From Rhizobium sp. 9140 (GTDB lineage: Bacteria > Pseudomonadota > Alphaproteobacteria > Rhizobiales > Rhizobiaceae): a stretch of 64,000 nucleotides of DNA. The notes under the pieces were generated by a model. It was given only the letters and a program-made list of their open reading frames with translations, did no database searches and was not told the DNA's origin. The stretch is taken from the NCBI RefSeq assembly GCF_900067135.1, contig NZ_FJUR01000001.1, positions 2,359,501 to 2,423,500 on the forward strand, read 5' to 3'. Positions 360 through 12,075 of this stretch are shown here, one piece after another. The first letter of the stretch is position 1. Each line of letters begins with the position of its first letter. The translations under genes were made by a program, and so were the position numbers.

Positions 360-1112
360 TCAGGCTGTGGTCTCCGGAGGGCCGAAGCGGATGCGGAAGC
401 GCCGGTTCTCCTTGCCCTTCTTCTCGATCTTCGCGATGTGGATGTCGCCCACCTCCTGCGTCTCGGACACATGCGTGCCGCCGCAGGGCTGGCTGTCGAT
501 GGCGGCATCCTCGCCGATGCAGACGAGGCTTACGGACCCGAGGCCGACAGGCGGGCGCACGTTCTTCGACTTGACGATGTCCGGATTGGCCAGAAGCTCG
601 TCATCCGTGATCCAGCGCAGCGTGATCGGATGATTGTCGCGAACGAGCGCCATCATCTTCGCGGTGACCGCGTCCTTGTCGATCGTCTCGCTCATGTCGA
701 AATCGACCCGGCTTTCGTCCTCGCCGACCGCCGCGCCCGTGATCGGGTAGGGGCAGACGACCGAAAGGAGATGGCAGGCTGTATGCATCCGCATCAGCCT
801 GTACCGGCGCGGCCAGTCGATATGCGCCACGATATCTTCGCCGACCTCCGGCCGCGCTTGGCCTTCGCCGGGCACATGAACGATCACCTCCTTGGTCGCA
901 CCCGTCCGTGTGGTGGTAATCTCGATCCGGCTGCCGTCGGAACGTTCAATAAAACCCCGATCGCCGGGCTGCCCGCCGGATGTCGCATAGAAAGGCGTGC
1001 GATCGAGCACGATACCGCCGTCTTCCAACACGTCGATCACCCGTCCCTCGCAGGTTGAGAGATAGAAATCTTCGCGGAACAGAGCTTCGGTTTTGTGTGT
1101 GGACATTGTCAT
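360..1112 (-). CDS. alaX: Alanyl-tRNA editing protein, AlaX type
   Basis: This 250-residue protein matches the free-standing editing domain of alanyl-tRNA synthetase, which hydrolyses Ser- or Gly-tRNA(Ala). The zinc-binding set is visible: H110 and H114 in the HTACH motif, then C210 and H214 in CGGTH. The N-terminal TSGGQPGDRG segment is the conserved glycine-rich motif of the family. It starts 4 bases after the cysK stop, so it is translated from the same message. A tRNA proofreading gene inside a cysteine biosynthesis operon is notable, but the link is inferred only from position. Confidence 0.88.
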   Translation of the reverse strand: MTMSTHKTEALFREDFYLSTCEGRVIDVLEDGGIVLDRTPFYATSGGQPGDRGFIERSDGSRIEITTTRTGATKEVIVHVPGEGQARPEVGEDIVAHIDWPRRYRLMRMHTACHLLSVVCPYPITGAAVGEDESRVDFDMSETIDKDAVTAKMMALVRDNHPITLRWITDDELLANPDIVKSKNVRPPVGLGSVSLVCIGEDAAIDSQPCGGTHVSETQEVGDIHIAKIEKKGKENRRFRIRFGPPETTA

Positions 1113-1116
1113 GACG

Positions 1117-2160
1117 TCAGGCGCTTGCCGCTTCGTAGGGAACGTCGATCTTGCTGTGCCGGCTCAGGAAGTCTGGAACCGGCAGGCCTTTGGATTTCAG
1201 GAAATCCGGATTGAACAGCTTCGACTGGTAGCGATTGCCATAATCGCACAGGATCGTCACGATCGTATGTCCCGGCCCGAGATCCCGCGCCATCCGGATC
1301 GCGCCGGCGATGTTAATACCGGATGAGCCGCCGAGGCAGAGACCTTCCTTTTCGATCAGGTCGAACACCAGCGGAACAGCTTCGGCGTCAGGGATGCGGT
1401 AGGAATAGTCCGGCGTGAACCCTTCGAGGTTCGCCGTGATACGGCCTTGACCGATGCCTTCGGTGATCGAACTGCCCGGCGCCGAGAACTCGCCCTCGGT
1501 GTAGTAGCTGAAAAGGGCGGCCCCTTCCGGGTCGGCTAGTCCGATTTTGATATCCGGATTGAATCCGCGCAGGCCCTCCGCAACGCCAGCAAGCGTTCCG
1601 CCGGAGCCGACGGCGCAGATGAAGCCATCGACCTTGCCGTCGGTGTCGCGCCAGATTTCCGGCGCCGTCGTCTCGATATGCGCTGCCCGGTTGGCCGTGT
1701 TGTCGAACTGGTTGGCCCAGATCGCCCCATTCGGTTCCGTCCGCGCCAGCTGCTCGGCGAGGCGGCCGGAGAGTTTTACGTAATTGTTCGGATTGCGGTA
1801 GGGAACGGCGGGAACCTCGACCAACTCGGCCCCCAGCAGCTTCAGCGCGTCCTTCTTTTCCTGGCTCTGCGTTTCCGGGATGACGATGACGGTGCGATAG
1901 CCCAGCGCCTGCGCCACGAGCGCGAGTCCGATTCCGGTATTGCCGGCCGTTCCCTCGACGATAACGCCACCGGGGCGCAACGTGCCCTGACGTTCCGCTT
2001 CGCGAATGATGAAGAGCGCCGCACGGTCCTTCACAGACTGCCCGGGATTGAGAAACTCGGCCTTTCCGAGAATCGTGCAACCGGTCGCATCTGATGCCGC
2101 CTTCAAGCGGATGAGAGGCGTGTTGCCGATGGCGTCGAGAACGGAATTCAGTGCGGACAT
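1117..2160 (-). CDS. cysK: Cysteine synthase A, PLP enzyme
   Basis: The 347-residue enzyme joins O-acetylserine and sulfide to make cysteine. The PLP lysine is K44 in the SVKDRA motif. The phosphate or substrate loop reads TAGNTG (71-76; most CysK proteins have TSGNTG), and a GSGGT motif binds the PLP phosphate. I chose the ATG at 2160, which gives the usual MSALNSVLDAIGNTPLIRL start. The longer reading frame reaches back to 2379, but its extra residues do not look like the family. It heads the cysK-alaX-sseA operon and is divergent from the ChrR-like gene. The protein is slightly longer than typical CysK (about 320 residues). Confidence 0.92.
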   Translation of the reverse strand: MSALNSVLDAIGNTPLIRLKAASDATGCTILGKAEFLNPGQSVKDRAALFIIREAERQGTLRPGGVIVEGTAGNTGIGLALVAQALGYRTVIVIPETQSQEKKDALKLLGAELVEVPAVPYRNPNNYVKLSGRLAEQLARTEPNGAIWANQFDNTANRAAHIETTAPEIWRDTDGKVDGFICAVGSGGTLAGVAEGLRGFNPDIKIGLADPEGAALFSYYTEGEFSAPGSSITEGIGQGRITANLEGFTPDYSYRIPDAEAVPLVFDLIEKEGLCLGGSSGINIAGAIRMARDLGPGHTIVTILCDYGNRYQSKLFNPDFLKSKGLPVPDFLSRHSKIDVPYEAASA

Positions 2161-2384
2161 GTGTGGGACCTCTTGAAGGAGAATCGCAATGGAAGCATTG
2201 GCGGGCTTCAGCGCAACATAGCCGGACGCGAGGTGGCGGCAAGGCCGGCAGGGAAGGCAGACGAATTCTGCGGTATGGTGTTGACTTCTTTTGCCGCTGC
2301 AAAGACCAAGCTGCAAGGAAAACGGTTTTGCAAGGCGGCGCTTCGGCGCAATATTTGTCTTGAAGCGCACAAAGCACAATTCGG

Positions 2385-2412
2385 TGATCCACGGCGAAGA
2401 CAGGATCGTAAG
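2385..2412 (+). promoter_or_regulatory. RpoE (singlet-oxygen ECF sigma) type promoter
   Basis: TGATCC (2385-2390), 18 bases, then TAAG (2409-2412) matches the Rhodobacter sphaeroides RpoE consensus TGATCC-N18-TA(A/T)(A/G) exactly. The downstream end of the -10 is only about 50 bases before the ChrR-like start. The same motif with the same spacing occurs on the other strand at 11154-11127 ahead of the photolyase operon. The sequence match is direct; control by an RpoE-type sigma is inferred. Confidence 0.85.
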
Positions 2413-2425
2413 AAATCATTATCGT

Positions 2426-2464
2426 ATGAGGGAGGCCCTTGCGAGGGCGGTGGATAGAGAGTGA
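2426..2464 (+). CDS. Possible 12-codon upstream ORF coupled to the ChrR-like gene
   Basis: An ATG at 2426 opens MREALARAVDRE and its stop TGA overlaps the ATG of the ChrR-like gene (TGATG). It begins a few bases after the expected transcription start, so the message would be almost leaderless for it. It could couple translation of the anti-sigma gene, or be the scar of a lost upstream gene. It may equally be chance, since it has no visible ribosome binding site. Confidence 0.25.
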   Translation: MREALARAVDRE

Positions 2465-3114
2465 TGACGACGAGTGAGCTCGATACGGTAGATGCGCTGA
2501 TGGCGCATTATGCATCTGGCATTTTGCCAGAGCCTGCTCGCGTTCTCGTTGCCGCGCATCTCGAACTGCAGTCTGCCAATCGGCAAACTGTGGCGGCATT
2601 CGAGGCAGCGGCCGGAGACCTCATCGAGGCGATCGACCCGTTGCCGCTGTCCGATCCCGAAAAAACTATCGCTGCTATTGTTTCAAGCCCTCGTTTATCG
2701 CTCGCTACAGCGCCGAGCCTCCAGCATATTGATAACGACGAATGGCCAGGCGTGTTGCGCGCGTTTGCCGGCTTCGACAGGGACGATATTCCTTGGCGCT
2801 GGAAGCTTCCCGGGTTGAAAGAATATGCGCTGGGCAAAATCGACGGCTGCGATGTTTCGTTCTACCGCATCCGACCGGGCCGGGCCATTCCAGAGCATAC
2901 GCATGAGGGTTTCGAGCTTTCCCTGGTGCTGCACGGCGCGTTCAGCGATGTAAGGGGCCGTTTTGGTCGGGGCGACATCTCCGTTGCCGATGACAGTCTG
3001 GATCATCGTCCGGTCGCCGAGAGCGGCGAACATTGTATCGTTTTCGCGGTGACCGATGCACCGGTCAAATTGCGTGGCTCTCTCAGCCGCCGCCTCAGCG
3101 ACCTGATTGGCTGA
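2464..3114 (+). CDS. ChrR-like cupin anti-sigma factor lacking the N-terminal zinc site
   Basis: The 216-residue protein has the two-part layout of ChrR, the anti-sigma factor that holds the singlet-oxygen sigma factor RpoE. The N-terminal sigma-binding part (about 1-90) begins DTVDALMAHYASG and the C-terminal part (about 110-200) is a cupin. The cupin metal ligands align with ChrR: H145, H147, E151, H181. The N-terminal zinc site does not: HLELQSAN at 32-39 keeps the His, but Q36 and N39 replace the two Cys, and the first His is also absent. No sigma gene precedes it. ATG 2464 is preferred over GTG 2461. It lies directly behind an exact RpoE-type promoter and is followed by the SDR gene. It is homologous to ChrR, but the mechanism must differ. 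Confidence 0.85.
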   Translation: MTTSELDTVDALMAHYASGILPEPARVLVAAHLELQSANRQTVAAFEAAAGDLIEAIDPLPLSDPEKTIAAIVSSPRLSLATAPSLQHIDNDEWPGVLRAFAGFDRDDIPWRWKLPGLKEYALGKIDGCDVSFYRIRPGRAIPEHTHEGFELSLVLHGAFSDVRGRFGRGDISVADDSLDHRPVAESGEHCIVFAVTDAPVKLRGSLSRRLSDLIG

Positions 3115-3213
3115 AACGCCGCAGGGCAAGCATCTTTCCGGATATTGCCACCGCTCTACGTCATCACCAGATCAATGAAAACAGGCATATCGCGCGCCTG
3201 GGAGAAACGGAAC

Positions 3214-4053
3214 ATGTCGTCTTTCATTGCACGCCCGGAACATGGTCTTGCCTGGGTCACGGGCGCCAGCTCGGGCATAGGTCGGGCGCTCGCTCTAAAG
3301 CTGGTGGCCGAAGGTTTCGGCGTGGTGGTCACCGCGCGAAGCCATGACAAGCTGGTGGCCCTGCAGCGAGAGGCGACGGGTCCCGGTCGCATCATCGTGC
3401 TCGATGGTGACGTGACCGATCCCGAAGATATGGAAAGGGTGATCGCTTCGATCGAATATGATCACGGCACGCTGGCGCTGGTGGCGCTCAATGCTGGCGT
3501 CTTCAAACCGGTTCATGGCGAGGATCTGCATCTCGAAGACTTTCAGGAAACCTTCTCGGTCAACCTGAACGGTGTGGTGAATTGCCTGCTGCCAGCGATC
3601 CGCCACATGAAGGTGCGCGGGCAGGGACAGATCGCCATCGTCTCCTCTGTCACCGGCTATGGCGGTCTGCCGACGAGCGGCGCTTATGGTGCGACGAAAG
3701 CCGCCCTCATCAATATGGCGGAGAGTCTCAAGTTCGATCTGGACAAGCAGGGCATCCGCATCCAGGTGGTCAATCCTGGCTTCGTGGATACGCCGGCAAC
3801 CAAGGAAAATGCCTTCCCCATGCCGGCACTGGTCTCGCCGGAAGAGGCGGCAGGCGCGATCGTTGCAGGACTTCAGGGCTCGGGTTTCGAGATCACCTTC
3901 CCGAAGCGCTTTACCTATGTGCTGAAGTTCATCAACATCCTGCCCTATTGGCTGTATTTCCCTCTCATCAATGCTGCAACGGGTTGGAAAAAGCGCCCGT
4001 CCGTCAAGGCGCGGCTGCCGCGCGGCAAGCCGGAAGAGCCTCAGGCCGTGTGA
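3214..4053 (+). CDS. Short-chain dehydrogenase/reductase
   Basis: This is a 279-residue classical SDR. It has the TGASSGIG cofactor loop at 16-23, NAG near 93, catalytic Ser near 145, and the Y158-GAT-K162 active-site pair. The C-terminus carries a hydrophobic stretch near 235-260 that could touch the membrane. I chose the ATG at 3214 because GGGAGAAACGG lies just upstream. It is about 100 bases after the ChrR-like gene and probably in the same message. An SDR is also part of the Rhodobacter RpoE regulon cluster (RSP1087), which supports a role in lipid or aldehyde metabolism under photo-oxidative stress. The substrate is unknown. Its last 13 bases overlap the end of mdtI on the other strand. 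Confidence 0.88.
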   Translation: MSSFIARPEHGLAWVTGASSGIGRALALKLVAEGFGVVVTARSHDKLVALQREATGPGRIIVLDGDVTDPEDMERVIASIEYDHGTLALVALNAGVFKPVHGEDLHLEDFQETFSVNLNGVVNCLLPAIRHMKVRGQGQIAIVSSVTGYGGLPTSGAYGATKAALINMAESLKFDLDKQGIRIQVVNPGFVDTPATKENAFPMPALVSPEEAAGAIVAGLQGSGFEITFPKRFTYVLKFINILPYWLYFPLINAATGWKKRPSVKARLPRGKPEEPQAV

Positions 4054-4367
4054 AGCACGAGCACGGCGCCAAACACGAGCGCCAGCCCGACCCAGCCGAT
4101 CGGCTTCAATGTCTGCTTGAACAGCAACCGCGCGCTGATGGCGGTTCCGAAGATGCCGGTCGCGCCGAGAATGCCGTAGGCGACGGCGAGGTCCATGCGA
4201 CGCACGGCTTCCGCCAGAAGCGCGAAAGCCACCAGCACCAGCAGGATCGATAGAACACCCCAGCCCTTGCGGGAGAAGCCTTCGGATTTGCTGGAGGCGA
4301 GGTTTGCGGCAACATCGAACAGACCCGCAAGGACAGCGAGGACGAAGGGCCACTCAGGCAGGCTCAT
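4041..4367 (-). CDS. mdtI: SMR-family efflux subunit, MdtI-like
   Basis: The 108-residue protein has four membrane segments and aligns well along its length with E. coli MdtI, one half of the MdtJI spermidine exporter: EGFSRKGWGVLSI, DLAVAYGILGATGI and GWVGLALVFGAVLV. The membrane-embedded Glu of helix 1, near-universal in SMR proteins (E14 in EmrE, LEIVAN in MdtI), is Asp here (D18 in FDVAAN). The ATG at 4367 gives the usual length and overlaps the end of mdtJ by 14 bases. It is the last gene of the photolyase operon. The polyamine substrate is inferred from the family only. Confidence 0.82.
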   Translation of the reverse strand: MSLPEWPFVLAVLAGLFDVAANLASSKSEGFSRKGWGVLSILLVLVAFALLAEAVRRMDLAVAYGILGATGIFGTAISARLLFKQTLKPIGWVGLALVFGAVLVLHTA

Positions 4368-4758
4368 TGGTGGCCTCCGCAGGTGCGGTTTCATGGTCCT
4401 CGCCCGCATTGACGAGAATGATGCCGAGAACCGCCATGGCGAGCCCGATGAACTCCCGCAGGCTGAGATCGTGGTGGAAGAAGAACACCGACACGAGTGT
4501 TATCAGCGCAATGCCCGACCCTTCCCAGATGGCATAGGCCACGCCGACCGGCAGCGTTCGCACGGCCTTCGCCAGACAGACATAGGAAAGCGCTATCGCC
4601 ATATACATGACGATATAGCCGTCCATTCCACCGGAAACGCTGGCGGCTTTCATGACGGTGAGGCCGATCACCTCGATGACGATGGCGAGCGCAAGGTAGA
4701 GCCAGGCAAGCCGGCGAGCGCCGCGCAGGCCGGCGGGCAGAGACGGTTCGTGTGTCAT
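4354..4758 (-). CDS. mdtJ: SMR-family efflux subunit, MdtJ-like
   Basis: This is a 134-residue, four-helix SMR protein. It matches MdtJ closely: LALAIVIEVIG with the essential Glu at E29, MKAASVSGG, VGVAYAIWEGSGI, and AGIVL-like helix 4. The N-terminus is extended by about 18 residues and the C-terminus carries an acidic tail. It starts 6 bases after the MFS gene and overlaps mdtI, so the two subunits are made together, as expected for a heterodimeric SMR pump. Its place in an operon with lipid and photolyase genes is unusual for MdtJI. Confidence 0.85.
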   Translation of the reverse strand: MTHEPSLPAGLRGARRLAWLYLALAIVIEVIGLTVMKAASVSGGMDGYIVMYMAIALSYVCLAKAVRTLPVGVAYAIWEGSGIALITLVSVFFFHHDLSLREFIGLAMAVLGIILVNAGEDHETAPAEATNEPA

Positions 4759-4764
4759 GATCTC

Positions 4765-6126
4765 TCAGGCGGTCGGTGCGATCGCCTCGCGTAGCTGACG
4801 CTGCATGCGTTCGTCCAGCGGAAATGTCCACATCAGTGCGATGGCGCAGAGTTTCAACGCGACCGGCACCCAGGCATAGAGCGCTGCGAGCGCGAACAGC
4901 GCATCGGCGCTGTTGTCGGCACCTGCCGCGGGGTCGAATCCGGCCGCAGACAGAATCGGAAAGACCAGCCCGGCGCCGATCGCCAGCGAAAGCTTCGTCG
5001 CCAGCCCCCAGGCCGCGAAGTAGAAGCCGCCCCGCTGCTCGCCGGAGACGGCCGTATCCGCGTCGATAACATCGGCCTGGATGGATGGCGGAAGTGCCAG
5101 ATCGAACCCGAGGAGAATGCCCGTGACGACGCAGATGGCCCCGAAGCCGTAGAGGCCACCCGGCGGCAAGAGCGGCGCCAGCAGGAAGACGGCACAGGCG
5201 ACGAGCATGCCGACCGACCAGGCGCGGTGCTTTCCGAAGCGGGCGGCGCAGGCGCTGGCAAGTGGCACGCCGCCGATGGCGCAAAGGAAGTAGAGAAACA
5301 GCAGCGGTCCGCGCATGTCCGGCAGGCCAAGCCGTGCGGAAACGAAGTAGAGAAACAGTGTCGCCGGAATGCCGTTTGCAAGCCCGTTGAGAAAATAGGC
5401 AAGGACCAGCCGCAGAAAAGGTTTGTTTCTCGCGAGAAAGCGCAGCGCATCCGGCAGGGACAGCCGCTCCTGCGTGCGGTTCGCGGGTTCGGGCACCATA
5501 CGGACGGTCAGGCCGCCGAGGATAAGCAGGCCAAGGCCGACAACGATGCCGAGCACCGCCAGACCGGAAAGCCCCTTCTGCTCGAAGCCGATGGCAAAAG
5601 GAAGGACGATGGCAATCAGCGTACCAATCAGCGTGAAGGTCTCGCGGAAGGCGGAGAGACGGGTGCGCCCATGATAGTCGCCGACAAGCTCCGCGCCCCA
5701 GGCGGAGTATGGCACCATGGCCATGGTGGAGCCAAGCGAGACGACACATCCCCAGAACCCGAGCCATCCGGCACCCGCCGTCTCTGCCGGCCAGTAGAGC
5801 ATCACGGCGGCAAGGGCCGCGACTGGAAGCGACATCAGGAACAGCAGCCGGCGGCGGCCGAATGCGGGATCCATCCTGTCTGCGGCATACCCGACCAAGG
5901 GATCCGAGATCGCGTCGAACAGGCGGATCAACAGGATCACCCAGCCAGCCGTCGCGATCGGCACGCCCAGCGTCTCCGTGTAATAGGTCGGCACGAGGGA
6001 GTAGAGGGGAAGGCCGAGGGCTGCCAGCGGTGCGGCGGGCAGGGCGTAGGCCAGAAGGGCGCGTACCGGGAGCTTTGCGTCCGAAAAACGGGCGGATGCG
6101 CGCGTCCCGTCCGGGAGATCATTCAT
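4765..6126 (-). CDS. MFS transporter of the GPH (sugar/cation symporter, MFS_2) type
   Basis: The 453-residue protein has about 12 membrane segments and the GPH-family signature early on: WVILLIRLFDAISDPLVGY near residues 61-79, then DRMDPAFGRRRL in the first cytoplasmic loop. The family includes melibiose-type symporters and also MFSD2A, a lysolipid carrier in animals. The gene overlaps the CFA-like gene by 8 bases and is followed at once by mdtJ. A GPH symporter next to a CFA-like methyltransferase also occurs in the Rhodobacter RSP1087-1091 cluster, as I recall it, so a lipid-related substrate is more plausible than a sugar. That remains inference. Confidence 0.85.
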   Translation of the reverse strand: MNDLPDGTRASARFSDAKLPVRALLAYALPAAPLAALGLPLYSLVPTYYTETLGVPIATAGWVILLIRLFDAISDPLVGYAADRMDPAFGRRRLLFLMSLPVAALAAVMLYWPAETAGAGWLGFWGCVVSLGSTMAMVPYSAWGAELVGDYHGRTRLSAFRETFTLIGTLIAIVLPFAIGFEQKGLSGLAVLGIVVGLGLLILGGLTVRMVPEPANRTQERLSLPDALRFLARNKPFLRLVLAYFLNGLANGIPATLFLYFVSARLGLPDMRGPLLFLYFLCAIGGVPLASACAARFGKHRAWSVGMLVACAVFLLAPLLPPGGLYGFGAICVVTGILLGFDLALPPSIQADVIDADTAVSGEQRGGFYFAAWGLATKLSLAIGAGLVFPILSAAGFDPAAGADNSADALFALAALYAWVPVALKLCAIALMWTFPLDERMQRQLREAIAPTA

Positions 6127-7372
6127 AGACGACCTGTCGGACGTCGATATTCTTCGCGCGGAACCCGGCTTCGCAATAGAACAGATAGAATTCCCAAAGC
6201 CGCTTGAAGCGGATATCGAAGCCTAGCGGCTCGATCTTCGGCCAGACCGACCAGAAGCGCTCCCGCCATTCGGCAAGCGTCCGGGCATAGTCTAGGCCGA
6301 AGCCGAGATCTCCGACCATGTTCAGCCCGACCTTGGAGCCGAGCGAAACCAGATGCTCGCGCGTCGGCAGCATGCCGCCCGGGAAGACATATTTCTGGAT
6401 GAAGTCGGGATTGGCGCGATATTCGCGATAGGATTCCGGCTTGATGGTGATGATCTGCAGGCCGGCCCGACCGCCCGGCTTAAGGCAGCGGCGGACCTGC
6501 GAGAAATAGGTCGGCCAGTATTTTTCGCCGACGGCCTCGAACATCTCGATGGAGACGACCTTGTCATAGGTTCCCGCCTCGTCGCGATAGTCCTGGAACT
6601 TGATGTCGACCTTGTCGGAGAGACCGGCCTTTTCCATCCGGGCGCGGGCGAAATCGAGTTGCTCGCGGCTGATCGTCAGGCCCGTCACGCGGCAGCCGAT
6701 TTCGCCGGCCGCATATTCTGCGAAGCCACCCCAGCCGCAGCCGATTTCGAGCACATGGTCGCCCGGCCCGATATCCGCGGCATCGGCCAACGCCTTGTAC
6801 TTCGCCCGCTGGGCAGACTGGAGGTCGTTCGCGCCCGTCGCGTAGAGCGCCGAGGAGTAGGTCATGGAAGGATCGAGCCATTGCGCATAGAACGCGTTGC
6901 CAAGGTCGTAATGGGCGGAGATGTTGCGCTTGGAGCCTGCCTTCGTGTTGGCGTTCATCCAGTGACGCATCTTCTCGACGAAGCGCAAAATGCCGCGAGC
7001 CCCGTTCGGGAAGTGCCGGCCCATCTCCGCATTGACGAGGAAAAGCTCGAGGAATGCCCCCACATCAGGGCTGTCCCAGTCGCCAGCCATGTAGCTTTCG
7101 GCCACACCGATGGTTCCGTTGGTCAGCGCACGCTGGGGCAGGTTCCAATTGTGCAACGTCACGGCTGCCTCCGGACCGTGTGCCCGGCCCTTGATGACGA
7201 CGGTTCGTCCATCGGGCAGCGTCAGTTGCAGGCAGCCGGCCTCCATATTGACCAAGCCGCGAAGCACCATCTGGGCCTTCGCCGGCAAGCCTTTGATGAA
7301 ACGGGAAATATTGTCCTTGGACAGACGCTCTGCGGGCGACTTCTCATCGCGCCATGTTTCAGCTGAACGCAT
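6119..7372 (-). CDS. CFA-synthase-like SAM-dependent fatty acyl methyltransferase
   Basis: The 417-residue protein matches the cyclopropane fatty acid synthase family, which methylates unsaturated acyl chains of phospholipids using S-adenosylmethionine. Visible landmarks are SAHYDLGNAFYAQWLDP (about 152-168), the SAM loop VLEIGCGWGG at 207-216, and FEAVGEKYWPTYF later. The Cys found after MxYS in E. coli Cfa and mycobacterial CmaA (MQYSCAY) is Ser here (MTYSSALY). Related proteins in Rhodobacter make 11-methyl and furan fatty acids that scavenge singlet oxygen, so the product may not be a plain cyclopropane. I chose the ATG at 7372; a TTG 18 bases upstream is less likely. Confidence 0.87.
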   Translation of the reverse strand: MRSAETWRDEKSPAERLSKDNISRFIKGLPAKAQMVLRGLVNMEAGCLQLTLPDGRTVVIKGRAHGPEAAVTLHNWNLPQRALTNGTIGVAESYMAGDWDSPDVGAFLELFLVNAEMGRHFPNGARGILRFVEKMRHWMNANTKAGSKRNISAHYDLGNAFYAQWLDPSMTYSSALYATGANDLQSAQRAKYKALADAADIGPGDHVLEIGCGWGGFAEYAAGEIGCRVTGLTISREQLDFARARMEKAGLSDKVDIKFQDYRDEAGTYDKVVSIEMFEAVGEKYWPTYFSQVRRCLKPGGRAGLQIITIKPESYREYRANPDFIQKYVFPGGMLPTREHLVSLGSKVGLNMVGDLGFGLDYARTLAEWRERFWSVWPKIEPLGFDIRFKRLWEFYLFYCEAGFRAKNIDVRQVVYE

Positions 7373-7414
7373 CGCACAACCTTTCGGCAAACATCGGACT
7401 TACACAAAATAGCC

Positions 7415-8314
7415 TTATTCGGCAGGGCTGCAAGTCTCTCGGTGGGAGGTGGGTTGTGGCGACAGCCGGCGCGGTGCCGGCTCGTCGCAGCGGATATCGT
7501 CGGTCCAGACGCTGGTCGGTGCGGGTGGTGCGGGCCGGGAGATATATCGCGCCCCCTTCCACCACAGCTTCGCCGCCTCCCAGTGAATGCCAGCCACGAT
7601 CTTCAAAGTAAGGTGCGGAATACGGCCGACGAGACGCAGAATATTGCCCGTCGTCAGCAGTTGCGCATGGCCGGAGAAGGTCGCCGAAAGCACAGGCCCC
7701 TCGGCATCCGTCTCAAGAATTCGCCAGCGGATATCCTTGCCCGGCGGCACCATGCGAAACCGGTAGCGCATGGCCATGGGCATAAAAGGTGACACATGGA
7801 AGATCTTGTCGCATTCCTGCCGAACGCCGGCATCGGTCACCTGCCCGGATGAAATCGGGCAGACATAGCTATGTCGCTCGCCGAAGGTGTTGCGCACCTC
7901 GTAAACCAGCGCCACCAGCGCATCGGACGTGTCATAGGCGTAATAGACGGCAAGGGGATTGAAGACCCAGCCGAGAATGCGCGGATAGCAGACGAGGAGC
8001 ACCCGAGCTGCAGGCGCGGAAACACCGGCATCGGCAAGCAGGCCATCGACATAGGCGCGCAGCGAAATGTCCACGCGCCCGGAATGGTCGCTCTGGTGGA
8101 ACGAGAGGATATTGAAGCGATCGACGGAAAACACGCAGCTTTGCGTGTCTGCTGCATCGAGCCGGTCGAGATCCACCATCAGCGAAAAGACGCTGTAGGA
8201 AAACCTGTGCCCGAGCGGCTTCATGCGCTGATGCATGACGTCGCCAGCATAGAGCAGCGCCGGCTCCGTTGGCGGAGCATGCAGGCGTCCGACATCGGGA
8301 GGCGTATCGGTCAT
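7415..8314 (-). CDS. DUF1365 family protein
   Basis: This 299-residue protein has the DUF1365 pattern: ALLYAGDVMHQRMKP near the N-terminus, HRFSYSVFSLMVDLDRL, and RILGWVFNPLAVYYAYD in the middle. The biochemical role of the family is not firmly known. It is very often found between an FAD amine-oxidase-like protein and a CFA-like methyltransferase, exactly as here, and is thought to act with them on membrane acyl chains. The start ATG at 8314 overlaps the stop of the upstream gene (ATGA), which favours it over the longer frame beginning at 8356. Confidence 0.87.
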   Translation of the reverse strand: MTDTPPDVGRLHAPPTEPALLYAGDVMHQRMKPLGHRFSYSVFSLMVDLDRLDAADTQSCVFSVDRFNILSFHQSDHSGRVDISLRAYVDGLLADAGVSAPAARVLLVCYPRILGWVFNPLAVYYAYDTSDALVALVYEVRNTFGERHSYVCPISSGQVTDAGVRQECDKIFHVSPFMPMAMRYRFRMVPPGKDIRWRILETDAEGPVLSATFSGHAQLLTTGNILRLVGRIPHLTLKIVAGIHWEAAKLWWKGARYISRPAPPAPTSVWTDDIRCDEPAPRRLSPQPTSHRETCSPAE

Positions 8315-9651
8315 TCCGCAGCTTCGGCGAAGATCGCGGTCGGAGCAAGCCGCCACGGTATGATGCCGCCGAGCGTTTCCGCCGCTGACAAGCCGGACGA
8401 CAGGCCATCTTCATGGAAGCCGTAACCTGTCCAGGCGCCGGCAAAGAACGTGTTGTTATCGCCCTGAAAGATCTTCAGCCGCCGTTGTGCATCGATGGAG
8501 CGGGCATCGAACTGCGGATGGTCGTAGGTGTACTCTGCAAAAACCCGGCGCGGATCGGGTTCGCGTTCCGGATTCAATGTGACGAAGAGCGGGCAGGCGG
8601 GGTCGATCGCCTGAAGGCTGTTCATCCAGTATGTCACGGCAACCTGGCTGTCAGCCCCCGGACGTGTCGAGCGTAGGTAGTTCCACGACGCCCAGACCTT
8701 CTGCCGCTTCGGCATCAGGGCCACATCCCGGTGCAGCACGACGCGATTCGGCTTGTAGGGCACGGCTTCCAGCACGGCGCGCTCCTGCGGCGTCGCGTCC
8801 GCGAGCATGGCGAGAGCCTGGTCCGAATGGGATGCGATGATGATCTTGTCGTAGACCCGCACCGTGCCATCGTCCTCCGTCACATGAACCTTCCGCCCGT
8901 CGCGCCGTATCGACCGAATGCCGCAGTTTAGCCTCAGCCTGTCGCCGAGCGGAGCCAGCAGCTTGTCGAGATAGACCCGGCTACCGCCTGCCACCGTGCG
9001 CCACGGATGGGGCGTCGCGTAGACGAGGCGGTGATTGTCGAAGAACTGAATGAAGTGATCCGCCGGAAACTCCAGCATCTTGGCGGCAGGCGCAGACCAG
9101 ATGGCCGCAGCCATCGGCAGCAGGTAGTTGTTGGTGAAGCCGGGCGAGAAACGGCGCCAGTCGAGATAGTCCCCGATCGACATCTCCGAAAGCCGGCCCG
9201 CATCGCGATCAACGAGGCAGATCTTGTTGAAGCGCAGGATCTCGCGCAACATCAGGAGGAAGGACGGACGCAGCATGTTCCGCTTCTGCGCAAAGAGCCC
9301 TGTGAACGGACCGCCGCGCCATTCAAGCGCGCCATGGTCGAGCGACAGCGCAAAGCTCATGCTGCTCGGCAGCGTCTCGACGTCGAGTTCGGCGAAAAGC
9401 GCTTTCAGGTTCGGATAGTTCGGCTCGTTATAGACGATGAAACCCGTATCGACCGAGATCCGCTGCCCGTCGTAATCGACCTCCACAGTAGCCGTATGCC
9501 CGCCAGGCCTCTCGGCCTTCTCATACAATGTCACGTCGTGAACGTCACGCAGCGCCCAGGCCGCCGAACTGCCGGAAATGCCCGAGCCGACAACAGCGAT
9601 CGAGAGCCGGCCATGCGCGGAAGAGATGCCGGTGGAAACAGAAGACGTCAT
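8311..9651 (-). CDS. FAD-dependent amine-oxidase-like protein
   Basis: The 446-residue flavoprotein starts with a dinucleotide fold: VVGSGISG at 20-27, the acidic E44 that would bind the adenosine ribose, and RPGGHT at 48-53. The C-terminal FAD contact reads FFAGAWTGYGFHEDG. Proteins of this type sit beside DUF1365 and CFA-like genes in many proteobacteria and are suspected to oxidise or desaturate acyl chains. The gene overlaps both neighbours by 4 bases (ATGA), so translation is coupled with photolyase upstream and DUF1365 downstream. The reaction is not established. Confidence 0.87.
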   Translation of the reverse strand: MTSSVSTGISSAHGRLSIAVVGSGISGSSAAWALRDVHDVTLYEKAERPGGHTATVEVDYDGQRISVDTGFIVYNEPNYPNLKALFAELDVETLPSSMSFALSLDHGALEWRGGPFTGLFAQKRNMLRPSFLLMLREILRFNKICLVDRDAGRLSEMSIGDYLDWRRFSPGFTNNYLLPMAAAIWSAPAAKMLEFPADHFIQFFDNHRLVYATPHPWRTVAGGSRVYLDKLLAPLGDRLRLNCGIRSIRRDGRKVHVTEDDGTVRVYDKIIIASHSDQALAMLADATPQERAVLEAVPYKPNRVVLHRDVALMPKRQKVWASWNYLRSTRPGADSQVAVTYWMNSLQAIDPACPLFVTLNPEREPDPRRVFAEYTYDHPQFDARSIDAQRRLKIFQGDNNTFFAGAWTGYGFHEDGLSSGLSAAETLGGIIPWRLAPTAIFAEAAE

Positions 9652-11099
9652 GCGGCATCCTTGATGTTGCGGTAGGCGGCAAGCGCGCGATCCCGCGCCT
9701 TGGCATGGTCGACGATCGGATTCGGGTAGGTTTCGCCCAGCGTCACGCCGGCCTTGGCAAGAACAGCGGACGGTGCGTCGAACGGGCGATGGATCCAGTC
9801 GCTCGGCATGTCGGAAAGTTCCGGCACGTGTTCACGGACGTACAGCCCGTCGGAATCGAACTTCTCACCCTGCGTGATCGGGTTGAAGACGCGGAAGAAG
9901 GGCGAGGCATCGGCACCGCAACCGGCGACCCACTGCCAGTTCATGGCATTGCTCGCAGGATCGGCATCCACGAGCGTATCGCGGAACCAGCGCTCGCCCC
10001 GCCGCCAGTCGATCAGCAGATCCTTCACCAGAAATGACCCCACGATCATGCGAACGCGATTGTGCATTGTGCCGAAGCGCCAGAGTTCACGCATGCCGGC
10101 ATCCACGATCGGAAAACCGGTCATGCCCGTCTTCCAAAGATCGAAATCCTCCTCGCCATCCGTCCAGCCGATCTTGTCGTATTTCCGGTTCAGGCTCTCG
10201 GTCGGCATGTCAGGATTGTGGAACAGGAGATGATAGGCGAACTCCCGCCAGACCAACTCCTTGCGGAACGTGATGACATCTGCCGAGTCGGCCTTCGACA
10301 GACCGCGCGTCGCGTGCCAGATACGGGCCGGGGAAATCTCGCCCATTGCCAGATGCGGCGAGAGCCGCGACGTTCCCGCTTCCCAGGTCCGCTCACGCGA
10401 CTCGCGATATCCGTCGATCGTGCCGTCCGTGAAATCCTCTAGCTTTTCATGTGCGGAGGTTTCGCCCGGCGCCCAGCGCTGCAAAAAATCTGCAGCCCAT
10501 TCGAGCTTCGGCAACAGGCCCCAGTCCTCAAGCGTCTCCGACCGCGGAAACGTCTTCGGCGCCGGCAATGTTTCGGGGGCGTCTACGGGCTCGGGCGGCT
10601 CGCCACTGGCCTCTATGGCACGCCAGAAAGGTGTGTAGACCCGGTACGGACCGCCGGTCTTTGTCTTCACGCGAGACGGCTCATGCATGAGCGCTCCGGC
10701 AAAGCTTGCCGTCTCCATCCCGTCTTTGGAGAAGACCTCTTTCAGCTTCGTATCGATCTTGATGCCGGCAGGATCGTATCGCCGGTTCCAGAAGACGGCG
10801 GAGGCGCCGGTTTCCTTGATAACCTGCCGCAAAACCACCTCGGCTTCACCACTCATCAGAATGAGACGTGAGCCACAAGATTCGAACTGGGCGGAAAGCG
10901 AGGTGAGCGAATGGTGAAGCCACCAGGCCTGCGCTTCACCAAGCGGGCCGGTTTCAGTATTATCTTCGCGAATATAGAGCGGAATGACAGGACGACCTGT
11001 TTCGGCTGCGGATGACAGCGCACGATTATCATCTGTGCGAAGGTCCTTGCGAAACCATACAATGATCGGGCTCTGGTCCCGTTGATGCACGTCGTCCAT
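9648..11099 (-). CDS. phrB: Deoxyribodipyrimidine photolyase
   Basis: The 483-residue protein uses blue light to split UV-made pyrimidine dimers. The N-terminal antenna domain begins IIVWFRKDLRTDDNRAL, the FAD domain contains GTSRLSPHLAMGEISP, and the C-terminal signature MHNRVRMIVGSFL and MNWQWVAGCGADASPFFR is complete. It is the first gene of a seven-gene operon whose open frames overlap or nearly touch. An AAAGGAAAC ribosome site lies just before the ATG. Upstream, 11154-11127 holds an exact RpoE-type promoter. Photolyase (phrA) is a classic RpoE target in Rhodobacter, which agrees with this arrangement. Confidence 0.93.
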   Translation of the reverse strand: MDDVHQRDQSPIIVWFRKDLRTDDNRALSSAAETGRPVIPLYIREDNTETGPLGEAQAWWLHHSLTSLSAQFESCGSRLILMSGEAEVVLRQVIKETGASAVFWNRRYDPAGIKIDTKLKEVFSKDGMETASFAGALMHEPSRVKTKTGGPYRVYTPFWRAIEASGEPPEPVDAPETLPAPKTFPRSETLEDWGLLPKLEWAADFLQRWAPGETSAHEKLEDFTDGTIDGYRESRERTWEAGTSRLSPHLAMGEISPARIWHATRGLSKADSADVITFRKELVWREFAYHLLFHNPDMPTESLNRKYDKIGWTDGEEDFDLWKTGMTGFPIVDAGMRELWRFGTMHNRVRMIVGSFLVKDLLIDWRRGERWFRDTLVDADPASNAMNWQWVAGCGADASPFFRVFNPITQGEKFDSDGLYVREHVPELSDMPSDWIHRPFDAPSAVLAKAGVTLGETYPNPIVDHAKARDRALAAYRNIKDAA

Positions 11100-11126
11100 C
11101 TTGATCCGTCTGTTTCCTTTGCCCGT

Positions 11127-11154
11127 CTTACGATCAGGGACGGCGTGTGGATCA
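11127..11154 (-). promoter_or_regulatory. RpoE (singlet-oxygen ECF sigma) type promoter of the photolyase operon
   Basis: On the minus strand TGATCC (11154-11149) is followed after exactly 18 bases by TAAG (11130-11127). This is identical in both boxes and spacing to the promoter at 2385-2412. The likely start site near 11120 leaves a leader of about 20 bases that contains the ribosome site of the photolyase gene. No other promoter-like element is needed to explain transcription of the seven genes downstream. Confidence 0.88.
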
Positions 11155-11222
11155 AGAAGGTTTCAAAAACAAACGAATACTGGGATAGACCCTGTCATAT
11201 GCCCGGCGAACACTCTCAACGC

Positions 11223-11512: not shown

Positions 11513-11695
11513 CTAAAGCGCTCCGCCCGTCACGGGATTGACCACGGGCCGTTCGCTGGCATCTTTCTCGTCTGCGGGTTTGGCGAATGTCGGGGCGATG
11601 GAGTCGTTATCATCTACGGCAGCATCATCCGCTGTCGTATTGACATCAGTCGGACGCTTCTGCTCGGACGTGCTGTTCTGGTCGCTGTTACCCAT
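11513..11695 (-). CDS. Small acidic hydrophilic protein
   Basis: This 60-residue, Asp- and Thr-rich protein (MGNSDQNSTSEQKRP at the start) has no hydrophobic segment and looks intrinsically disordered. A GGAG ribosome site precedes the ATG at 11695. The longer frame upstream runs through the tRNA-Asn gene and is not real. A GGAAC-N16-TGTT element at 11745-11721 resembles an EcfG promoter with one mismatch in the -10, suggesting expression under general stress. I do not recognise a family. Confidence 0.6.
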   Translation of the reverse strand: MGNSDQNSTSEQKRPTDVNTTADDAAVDDNDSIAPTFAKPADEKDASERPVVNPVTGGAL

Positions 11696-11720
11696 GATCT
11701 GTTCTCCGTGGTAACCGGAG

Positions 11721-11745
11721 AACACGGGGTCAAGACAAATGTTCC
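11721..11745 (-). promoter_or_regulatory. EcfG-like promoter (imperfect -10)
   Basis: Minus strand GGAAC (11745-11741), 16 bases, TGTT (11724-11721). The alphaproteobacterial EcfG consensus is GGAAC-N16/17-CGTT, so the first -10 base differs. It lies about 26 bases before the start of the 60-residue acidic protein. Moderate support only. Confidence 0.4.
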
Positions 11746-11832
11746 GGCTTGTATGGAGGAACAGAATAGTCGCAATAGGGGAGGCGGTCGTCGTGTGACC
11801 TAAGCCACATGCCATGATCTTGATTAAGAAAA

Positions 11833-11907
11833 TGGCTCCCCGGGCCGGATTCGAACCGGCGACCTGTCGATTAACAGTCGAATGCTCTACCGCTGAGCTA
11901 CCAGGGA
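11833..11907 (-). tRNA. tRNA-Asn (GTT)
   Basis: The reverse strand folds as a tRNA: acceptor TCCCTGG pairs with CCGGGGA, D-arm GCTCAGCGGTAGAGC, anticodon loop CTGTTAA with anticodon GTT, T-arm with GGTTCGAATCC, discriminator G and encoded CCA. Length is 75 bases. Confidence 0.96.
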
Positions 11908-12075
11908 ACATCTGCGCTGCAGAAGTGAGGCTGCTAATACGGGTGCTTTTTCGATTTGCCAAGCGCTTTTTTCAAAAAATCGCGTCTCGCTGTGGACAAA
12001 CACGGATGCGAAGCACACCTCAGGGCCAATATGGGCGACAGGGGTCGTTTTAAGTGGATGAGGCCGGACTGGACG

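Follow-up and report, generated by a model that had tools for sequence, protein, structure and literature searches.

The window analysed here is a stretch of 64,000 nucleotides from Rhizobium sp. 9140 (contig NZ_FJUR01000001.1; G000 C1:2359501-2423500, G000 being this genome of 5.43 Mb in 7 contigs). Near its left end lies an island of nine genes framed by two promoters of the type recognized by extracytoplasmic function (ECF) sigma factors of class ECF11, to which RpoE belongs. The original prediction had read the island as a convergent photo-oxidative stress block, and the layout was confirmed: two genes are on the plus strand and seven on the minus strand. The operons meet tail to tail, the short-chain dehydrogenase (SDR) gene ending at 4053 and the last SMR gene at 4041, an overlap of 13 bases. 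The right operon runs in the order photolyase (phr), amine-oxidase-like, DUF1365, CFA-like, MFS_2, SMR, SMR, its genes overlapping or at most 25 bases apart (Table 1). That prediction was largely right, and it overlooked that the left operon starts with chrR, the gene for an anti-sigma factor homologue. We think it likely that the island belongs to a split and rewired ECF11 core photo-oxidative regulon, in which a zinc-independent ChrR would act in trans on a sigma factor without autoregulation.

Both copies of the predicted motif TGATCC-N18-TAAG are exact and lie where they had been placed. The window contains no further site with spacers of 17–19 allowed, and shuffled versions of it hold 0.16 sites on average, with two sites reached in none of 100 shuffles. 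From the end of the promoter there are 48 bp to the GTG of chrR (2461) and 27 bp to the ATG of phr (11099). In both sites CG precedes TA, so that they also fit TGATCC-N16-CGTA, the consensus derived by chromatin immunoprecipitation sequencing for the ECF11/RpoE homologue of Pseudomonas syringae (PMC5507510). The original prediction had proposed that the 10-base motif be counted against chance, and on this count it passes weakly: the whole genome has 7 copies of TGATCC-N17–19-TAAG and 2 of the reversed control, a mild enrichment. The extended motif does better, with 10 sites against 0, several of the 10 being intragenic. Since the 10-base count by itself proves too little, the argument relies on conservation and on the extended motif. 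In 7 genomes of the genus the latter occurs 4 to 11 times each and 0 times reversed, and a site stands before chrR and before phr in all seven. An inverted repeat of 12 nt (92 % complementary; window 11096–11107 / 11149–11160) overlaps with one arm the -35 box of the photolyase promoter.

The 217-residue product of chrR scores 145.7 bits against the ChrR family TIGR02451 (cut-off 124.5), and its closest solved structure is ChrR of Rhodobacter sphaeroides [2z2s_B]. The genome encodes one full-length ChrR, besides one partial cupin match under the cut-off. An AlphaFold2 model (32 ChrR sequences; mean pLDDT, the predicted local distance difference test score, 87.5) displays helices at residues 9–18, 23–35, 37–56 and 65–74, all ahead of the cupin part. 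In a Foldseek search with this model the top six hits were the ChrR chains of 2q1z and 2z2s [best 2q1z ChrR, 7.9e-16], and the predicted architecture is that of ChrR, anti-sigma helices joined to a cupin. The zinc motif that defines zinc-binding anti-sigma (ZAS) proteins, H-X24/25-H-X3-C-X2-C (PMC6432622), lacks three of its four ligands in this protein: H6 is replaced by D, C35 by Q and C38 by N, and H31 is the only one kept. The cupin ligands H141, H143, E147 and H177 (HHEH) are all retained.

The genome search for an RpoE-type sigma gene for which the original prediction had called was successful. The sole RpoE-like match at E 1e-20 or better is found at G000 C1:523375-523944 on the minus strand. 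Among solved structures it is closest to 2q1z_A [1.6e-42], the RpoE of the ChrR complex, with the next at only 1.3e-16, and its assignment to ECF11 was made through this closest sigma factor of known structure. It is situated 1,838,047 bp from chrR on the same contig; the two genes do not constitute an adjacent rpoE-chrR operon. An overlooked sigma gene next to chrR was considered and rejected: the two main open reading frames (ORFs) in 1–2460 match AlaX and cysteine synthase, and 0 of the genome's 28 sigma region-4 matches fall there. To look for a different anti-sigma gene next to the lone sigma genes, flanks of about 1.5 kb were listed at 15 of 19 loci. The neighbours are often what we take, by recognition rather than family scoring, to be rRNA-methyltransferase-like, IalB-like and DUF1232-like genes, and an anti-sigma of an unfamiliar kind among them is conceivable.

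Relatives were compared in three samples. The first comprises 61 genomes (this one and 60 relatives). The family sample comprises 160 genomes drawn evenly from the family with a completeness of 97 or more. The named sample was gathered with 13 unlinked ChrRs as queries and consists of the best 80 of 227 relatives, mainly Rhizobium, Pararhizobium, Hoeflea and allies; it shows the uniformity of the unlinked type and not its frequency, because the search patterns favour this type.

In the family sample 75 genomes possess a ChrR (E 1e-30), and exactly these 75 possess the sigma factor (E 1e-30), with neither at this level in the other 85; there are 77 genes of each kind. The ChrR scores form two groups, 180–243 bits and 118–156 bits, and so do the identities of the sigma factors to that of the window genome, 38–48 % and 50–100 %; both divisions hold the same genomes (39 and 38). 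All 39 pairs of the high-scoring group are adjacent, with a gap of at most 33 bp between the sigma and ChrR matches. In the low-scoring group 0 of 38 lie within 200 bp, and six pairs share one contig at distances of 1.1–2.7 Mb. In the first sample 36 of the 61 genomes encode a ChrR scoring 119 bits or more, and the identical 36 encode a sigma factor (E 1.9e-28 or better), the genes being adjacent in 17 and unlinked in 19. Two more of its genomes (G042, G056) show only weak matches, to the cupin part of ChrR, and further ones show sigma matches of lower significance (E 1e-20 to 1e-24); we read these as other cupins and other ECF sigmas. At the loci of the named sample no sigma match was found in any of the 80 flanks (at most 10 kb, less on some contigs). 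The unlinked ChrR type is a widespread variant. An unlinked chrR is also present in the laboratory strain Rhizobium johnstonii/leguminosarum 3841 (L204). Two genera (g79 and g119) contain one genome of each type apiece, and both types occur together in G122 and G184, each of which has an adjacent and an unlinked pair with both partners present. In these two genomes the promoter motif precedes the unlinked chrR, and no exact site was seen before the adjacent rpoE in the stretch scanned.

The ligands were read in the ChrR regions of all 77 family genes (G001, which lies outside the family sample, was excluded). Both zinc cysteines occur in 33 of the 39 adjacent ChrRs, and either Cys 35 or Cys 38 in 0 of the 38 unlinked ones. 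The six adjacent exceptions have C35 only (3) or neither cysteine (3). H31 is kept in 34 of the 38 unlinked proteins (lost in G074, G154, G128 and G189), and the cupin HHEH set is complete in 77/77. In the family sample loss of the zinc cysteines is therefore universal in the split type, though it is also met outside it. ChrRs lacking both cysteines though rpoE is adjacent were noted at L134 (G055), L136 (G014), L334 (G150), L335 (G107) and L336 (G174).

The promoter changes place with the gene arrangement. TGATC[CT]-N16-CGTA stands before rpoE in 35 of the 39 adjacent pairs (not G104, G116, G122, G184), and before chrR in 35 of the 38 unlinked pairs. It is found within 250 bases before chrR in 80/80 of the named sample, and among the unlinked loci of the first sample a motif in which 18 bases separate TGATCC from TA precedes chrR in 18 of 19. 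The 450 bases before the unlinked sigma gene contain the ECF11 motif in none of 46 genomes (27 from the family sample, 18 from the first sample, and G043). A TTGAC-N15–20-TNTAC element was found there in 16 of the 46; 200 shuffles gave 0.22 on average and never more than 2. This count is descriptive only, as the pattern was picked from the same sequences. The lack of an own-type promoter, together with a TTGAC-type element in part of the clade, suggests that the lone sigma gene is probably transcribed by the housekeeping polymerase.

Natural losses were also encountered. DUF1365 occurs in 37 genomes of the first sample, four of which (G008, G013, G016, G036) yield neither a ChrR match nor any sigma match better than E 1e-21. 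These four retain the amine-oxidase-like, DUF1365 and CFA-like genes, and two of them the photolyase; their fetched enzyme regions (10–17 kb) contain 0 motif sites. In G016 the SDR, cysteine synthase and AlaX genes are still consecutive, with chrR gone. Four unlinked genomes have the enzymes away from chrR, and in one of these, G046, a site precedes the photolyase operon.

Based upon these observations we propose the following circuit. The lone sigma gene, bearing no ECF11-type promoter, would be transcribed, probably by the housekeeping polymerase, in a constitutive manner. ChrR, the product of the first gene of the regulon, may bind this sigma factor in trans and hold it inactive, its anti-sigma domain presumably working through the helical fold and without an HHCC zinc site. 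The sigma factor would be released by a stress signal acting via the intact cupin metal site; homology points to singlet oxygen or an organic peroxide as this signal. The freed sigma would then transcribe chrR-SDR and the photolyase operon, which appear to serve DNA repair, fatty-acid modification and transport, and newly made ChrR would switch the response off. The adjacent form links sigma autoregulation to the anti-sigma; the split form would keep only the negative feedback by ChrR. That a large rhizobial lineage has a zinc-free ChrR which senses by its cupin alone, and a constitutive sigma restrained by an anti-sigma of its own regulon, has in our view somewhat better than an even chance of being correct.

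One might instead regard the island as an ordinary RpoE-ChrR core regulon in which the splitting and the ligand changes are neutral and the circuit is that of Rhodobacter. The promoter motif (PMC5507510), the core gene families and the overall ChrR fold are all identical in kind, and with one or both cysteines missing in 6 of the 39 adjacent ChrRs the zinc site is dispensable elsewhere too. We nevertheless consider this unlikely, since both cysteines are gone from 38/38 unlinked ChrRs, the promoter precedes 0/46 unlinked sigma genes, and the unlinked ChrRs are reached by a long branch. Trees of 37 rows set the unlinked proteins apart in both families, at support 97/86 for the sigmas and 100/100 for the ChrRs, and the separating branch measures 0.15 for sigma and 1.52 for ChrR, which indicates that the anti-sigma changed far more than its sigma partner.

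Still less probable is that the unlinked ChrR has given up its anti-sigma function and become a cupin effector or regulon enzyme, with the sigma factor controlled otherwise. Such a role would suit the lost zinc ligands and the position of chrR among effector genes. It would also suit the distribution of constraint: among six ChrRs of the genus the ratio of nonsynonymous to synonymous polymorphism (pN/pS) is lowest in the cupin part at 0.060, against 0.144 in helices I–III, 0.244 in helix IV and 0.546 in the linker, values that are rough, as synonymous differences are high (0.43–0.57). The domain borders were taken from the model. The helices are nonetheless under purifying selection, and the model still shows four of them. 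In the family sample the conservation of helix IV in unlinked ChrRs does not fall below that in adjacent ones (mean frequency of the commonest residue 0.55 vs 0.34), while for helix III it is slightly lower (0.51 vs 0.57). The one-to-one co-occurrence with the sigma factor likewise argues for an anti-sigma. As judged from these comparisons, the anti-sigma domain has been kept by purifying selection despite loss of the zinc site.

That zinc or another metal is still bound through other residues (D/E at 6, H31, H/N at 38) is highly improbable: H31 is kept in 80/80 named as well as in most unlinked family ChrRs and His occurs at 38 in some, but positions 35 and 38 vary widely, Cys at either is found in 0/80 of the named sample, and aligned residues 1–60 are free of cysteine in 80/80, all of which have a complete cupin HHEH set.

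Several points weigh against the zinc-independent, trans-acting ChrR that we favour. The motif is missing before chrR in G074, G103 and G154 of the family sample and in G057 of the first, and before phr in G019. Among the unlinked genomes with separate enzymes, the photolyase regions fetched from G027 and G043 contain no exact site, and in G034 about 1.1 kb separate the site from the photolyase match. The TTGAC-type element is restricted to the 16 sigma genes mentioned. The six adjacent ChrRs without one or both cysteines imply that loss of the zinc site does not depend on splitting alone. The co-occurrence of sigma and ChrR partly reflects shared descent, so that the counts are not independent. 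Lastly, zinc is reported to be necessary in R. sphaeroides ChrR, and loss of the site could therefore mean loss of function.

Table 1. Promoters and genes of the island and its left flank (window positions)
Feature	Position	Strand	Evidence or remark	Sequence
AlaX-like gene, flanking	360..1112	-	family match	
Cysteine-synthase-like gene, flanking	1117..2379 (ORF)	-	start perhaps near 2160	
ECF11-type promoter, TGATCC-N16-CG-TAAG	2385..2412	+	before chrR-SDR	TGATCCACGGCGAAGACAGGATCGTAAG
chrR, ChrR-family anti-sigma homologue	2461..3114	+	TIGR02451; start GTG 2461 or ATG 2464	
Short-chain dehydrogenase (SDR)	3145..4053	+	PF00106 E 5.3e-47; start perhaps ATG 3214	
SMR-family efflux protein, last of right operon, overlaps SDR 3' end	4041..4409	-	PF00893 E 1.8e-16	
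SMR-family efflux protein, overlaps preceding SMR gene	4354..4758	-	PF00893 E 1.3e-23	
GPH/MFS_2 symporter-like protein	4765..6126	-	PF13347 E 2.6e-79	
CFA-like S-adenosylmethionine (SAM) methyltransferase, UfaM-type candidate	6119..7390	-	PF02353 E 8.9e-82	
DUF1365 protein	7415..8356	-	PF07103 E 5.8e-79	
Flavin amine-oxidase-like protein	8311..9651	-	PF01593 E 6.5e-26	
DNA photolyase/cryptochrome family (phr), first of right operon	9648..11099	-	PF03441 E 1.8e-87, PF00875 E 2e-49	
ECF11-type promoter, TGATCC-N16-CG-TAAG	11127..11154	-	before photolyase operon	TGATCCACACGCCGTCCCTGATCGTAAG

The island had been said to consist of gene families controlled by RpoE, and by family this holds for the photolyase, CFA-like, amine-oxidase-like and SDR genes, which appear in the core-regulon table of PMC5507510; the SMR pair is peripheral, each SMR gene occurring at 10 of the 80 named loci. 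These same four kinds of gene stand, by sequence, behind TGATCC-N16-CGTA, as expected of an ECF11 core regulon. The DUF1365 protein is presumably the counterpart of the "hypothetical protein" RSP_1090 in that table. Flanks of the named loci contain the CFA-like gene in 73 cases, photolyase in 62, DUF1365 in 62, the amine-oxidase-like gene in 54 and MFS_2 in 37 (of 80), counts which are lowered by contig ends. At the 19 unlinked loci of the first sample the SDR gene lies 3' of chrR in 19, and a cysteine-synthase-like gene 5' of it in 18 (not L114).

None of the named CFA-synthase models gives the CFA-like protein a score that reaches its curated cut-off, a result in keeping with a UfaM-type enzyme without proving one. 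The ufaM gene of Halomonas encodes a CFA-like enzyme that makes a furan-fatty-acid intermediate (PMC12089945), and a review connects genes of the core regulon with furan fatty acids and with the turnover of ChrR (PMC6852236). The island may be engaged in furan- or methyl-fatty-acid lipid chemistry.

AlaX-like and cysteine-synthase-like genes adjoin the unlinked chrR at 80/80 named loci; these neighbours are probably not part of the regulon. Just past the island, at window 11833–11907 on the minus strand, there is a tRNA-Asn (gtt) gene, and since it lies inside the span of ORF 11513–11962 the latter is unlikely to be a gene.

In the genus genomes the extended motif marks four recurring transcription units, including those of chrR and phr. 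An ECF11-type site at G000 C1:1735969-1735994 (L139) is followed by a small predicted exported protein and then by a response-regulator gene; this arrangement of site and genes is found in at least four genus genomes (G000, G001, G004, G005) and is possibly a further unit of the regulon. Another, at G000 C1:1441773-1441798 (L138), lies about 35 bp before a predicted exported protein of 127 residues, and a site of this kind precedes the small protein in at least five (G000, G001, G003, G004, G005). Outside G000 both recurrence counts are based on 26 of 40 sites. Neither small protein has a Pfam match, 120 residues of the 127-residue one having been scanned. A TGATCC-N18-TAAG site with no CG before TA is situated at G000 C1:1387996-1388023 (L001, L068), 20 bp before an edd-like gene. 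We read this gene as edd, following pgl- and zwf-like genes, without a family search.

What the zinc-cysteine site of ChrR does in singlet-oxygen sensing is described as under debate (PMC6432622), and in a 2019 review it is termed unknown (PMC6852236). A natural ChrR clade without this site, with one sigma partner each and the cupin intact, makes the sensing question directly testable. It also offers a clear case of a sigma and its likely anti-sigma parted in the genome, the shared promoter staying with the anti-sigma alone, and this relocation should convert a sigma-autoregulated circuit into one with negative feedback only. Annotation of sigma/anti-sigma pairs by adjacency would overlook unlinked pairs. 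The island and its promoters are of a kind already known; in the titles, abstract starts and passages that the search of open-licence papers covered we found no description of an unlinked or zinc-free ChrR, and the unlinked cysteine-free type is apparently undescribed there.

RseA of Escherichia coli and RskA of Mycobacterium tuberculosis are membrane-bound and have no cupin domain. Like the ChrR of the window, both have a helical anti-sigma bundle that contains no zinc motif (PMC7406223, PMC6852236), but they are described as sharing little sequence similarity with ChrR (PMC6852236). P. syringae PSPTO_1043/1042 resembles the present system in its TGATCC-N16-CGTA motif and in a phrB locus that also contains cfa, amine oxidase and SDR genes; it differs in that sigma and ChrR form one predicted operon, for which sigma autoregulation is suggested (PMC5507510). 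The word zinc is absent from the main text of that study.

The closest parallel is RpoE-ChrR (ECF11) of R. sphaeroides, with which the window system shares the core gene families, a related sigma factor [2q1z_A, 1.6e-42], the two-domain fold of ChrR and the cupin ligands. There chrR sits in an rpoE-chrR operon, the anti-sigma domain requires zinc, bound at its HHCC site, to inhibit sigma-E, and the cupin domain is required for the singlet-oxygen response (PMC6852236). In the window genome, by comparison, chrR is unlinked, its zinc site is gone and the sigma gene has no own-type promoter. The adjacent rhizobial rpoE-chrR pairs (39/77) have the same families and, before rpoE in 35 of them, the same motif; they differ in the short gap between sigma and ChrR and in the two zinc cysteines, which 33 of them keep.

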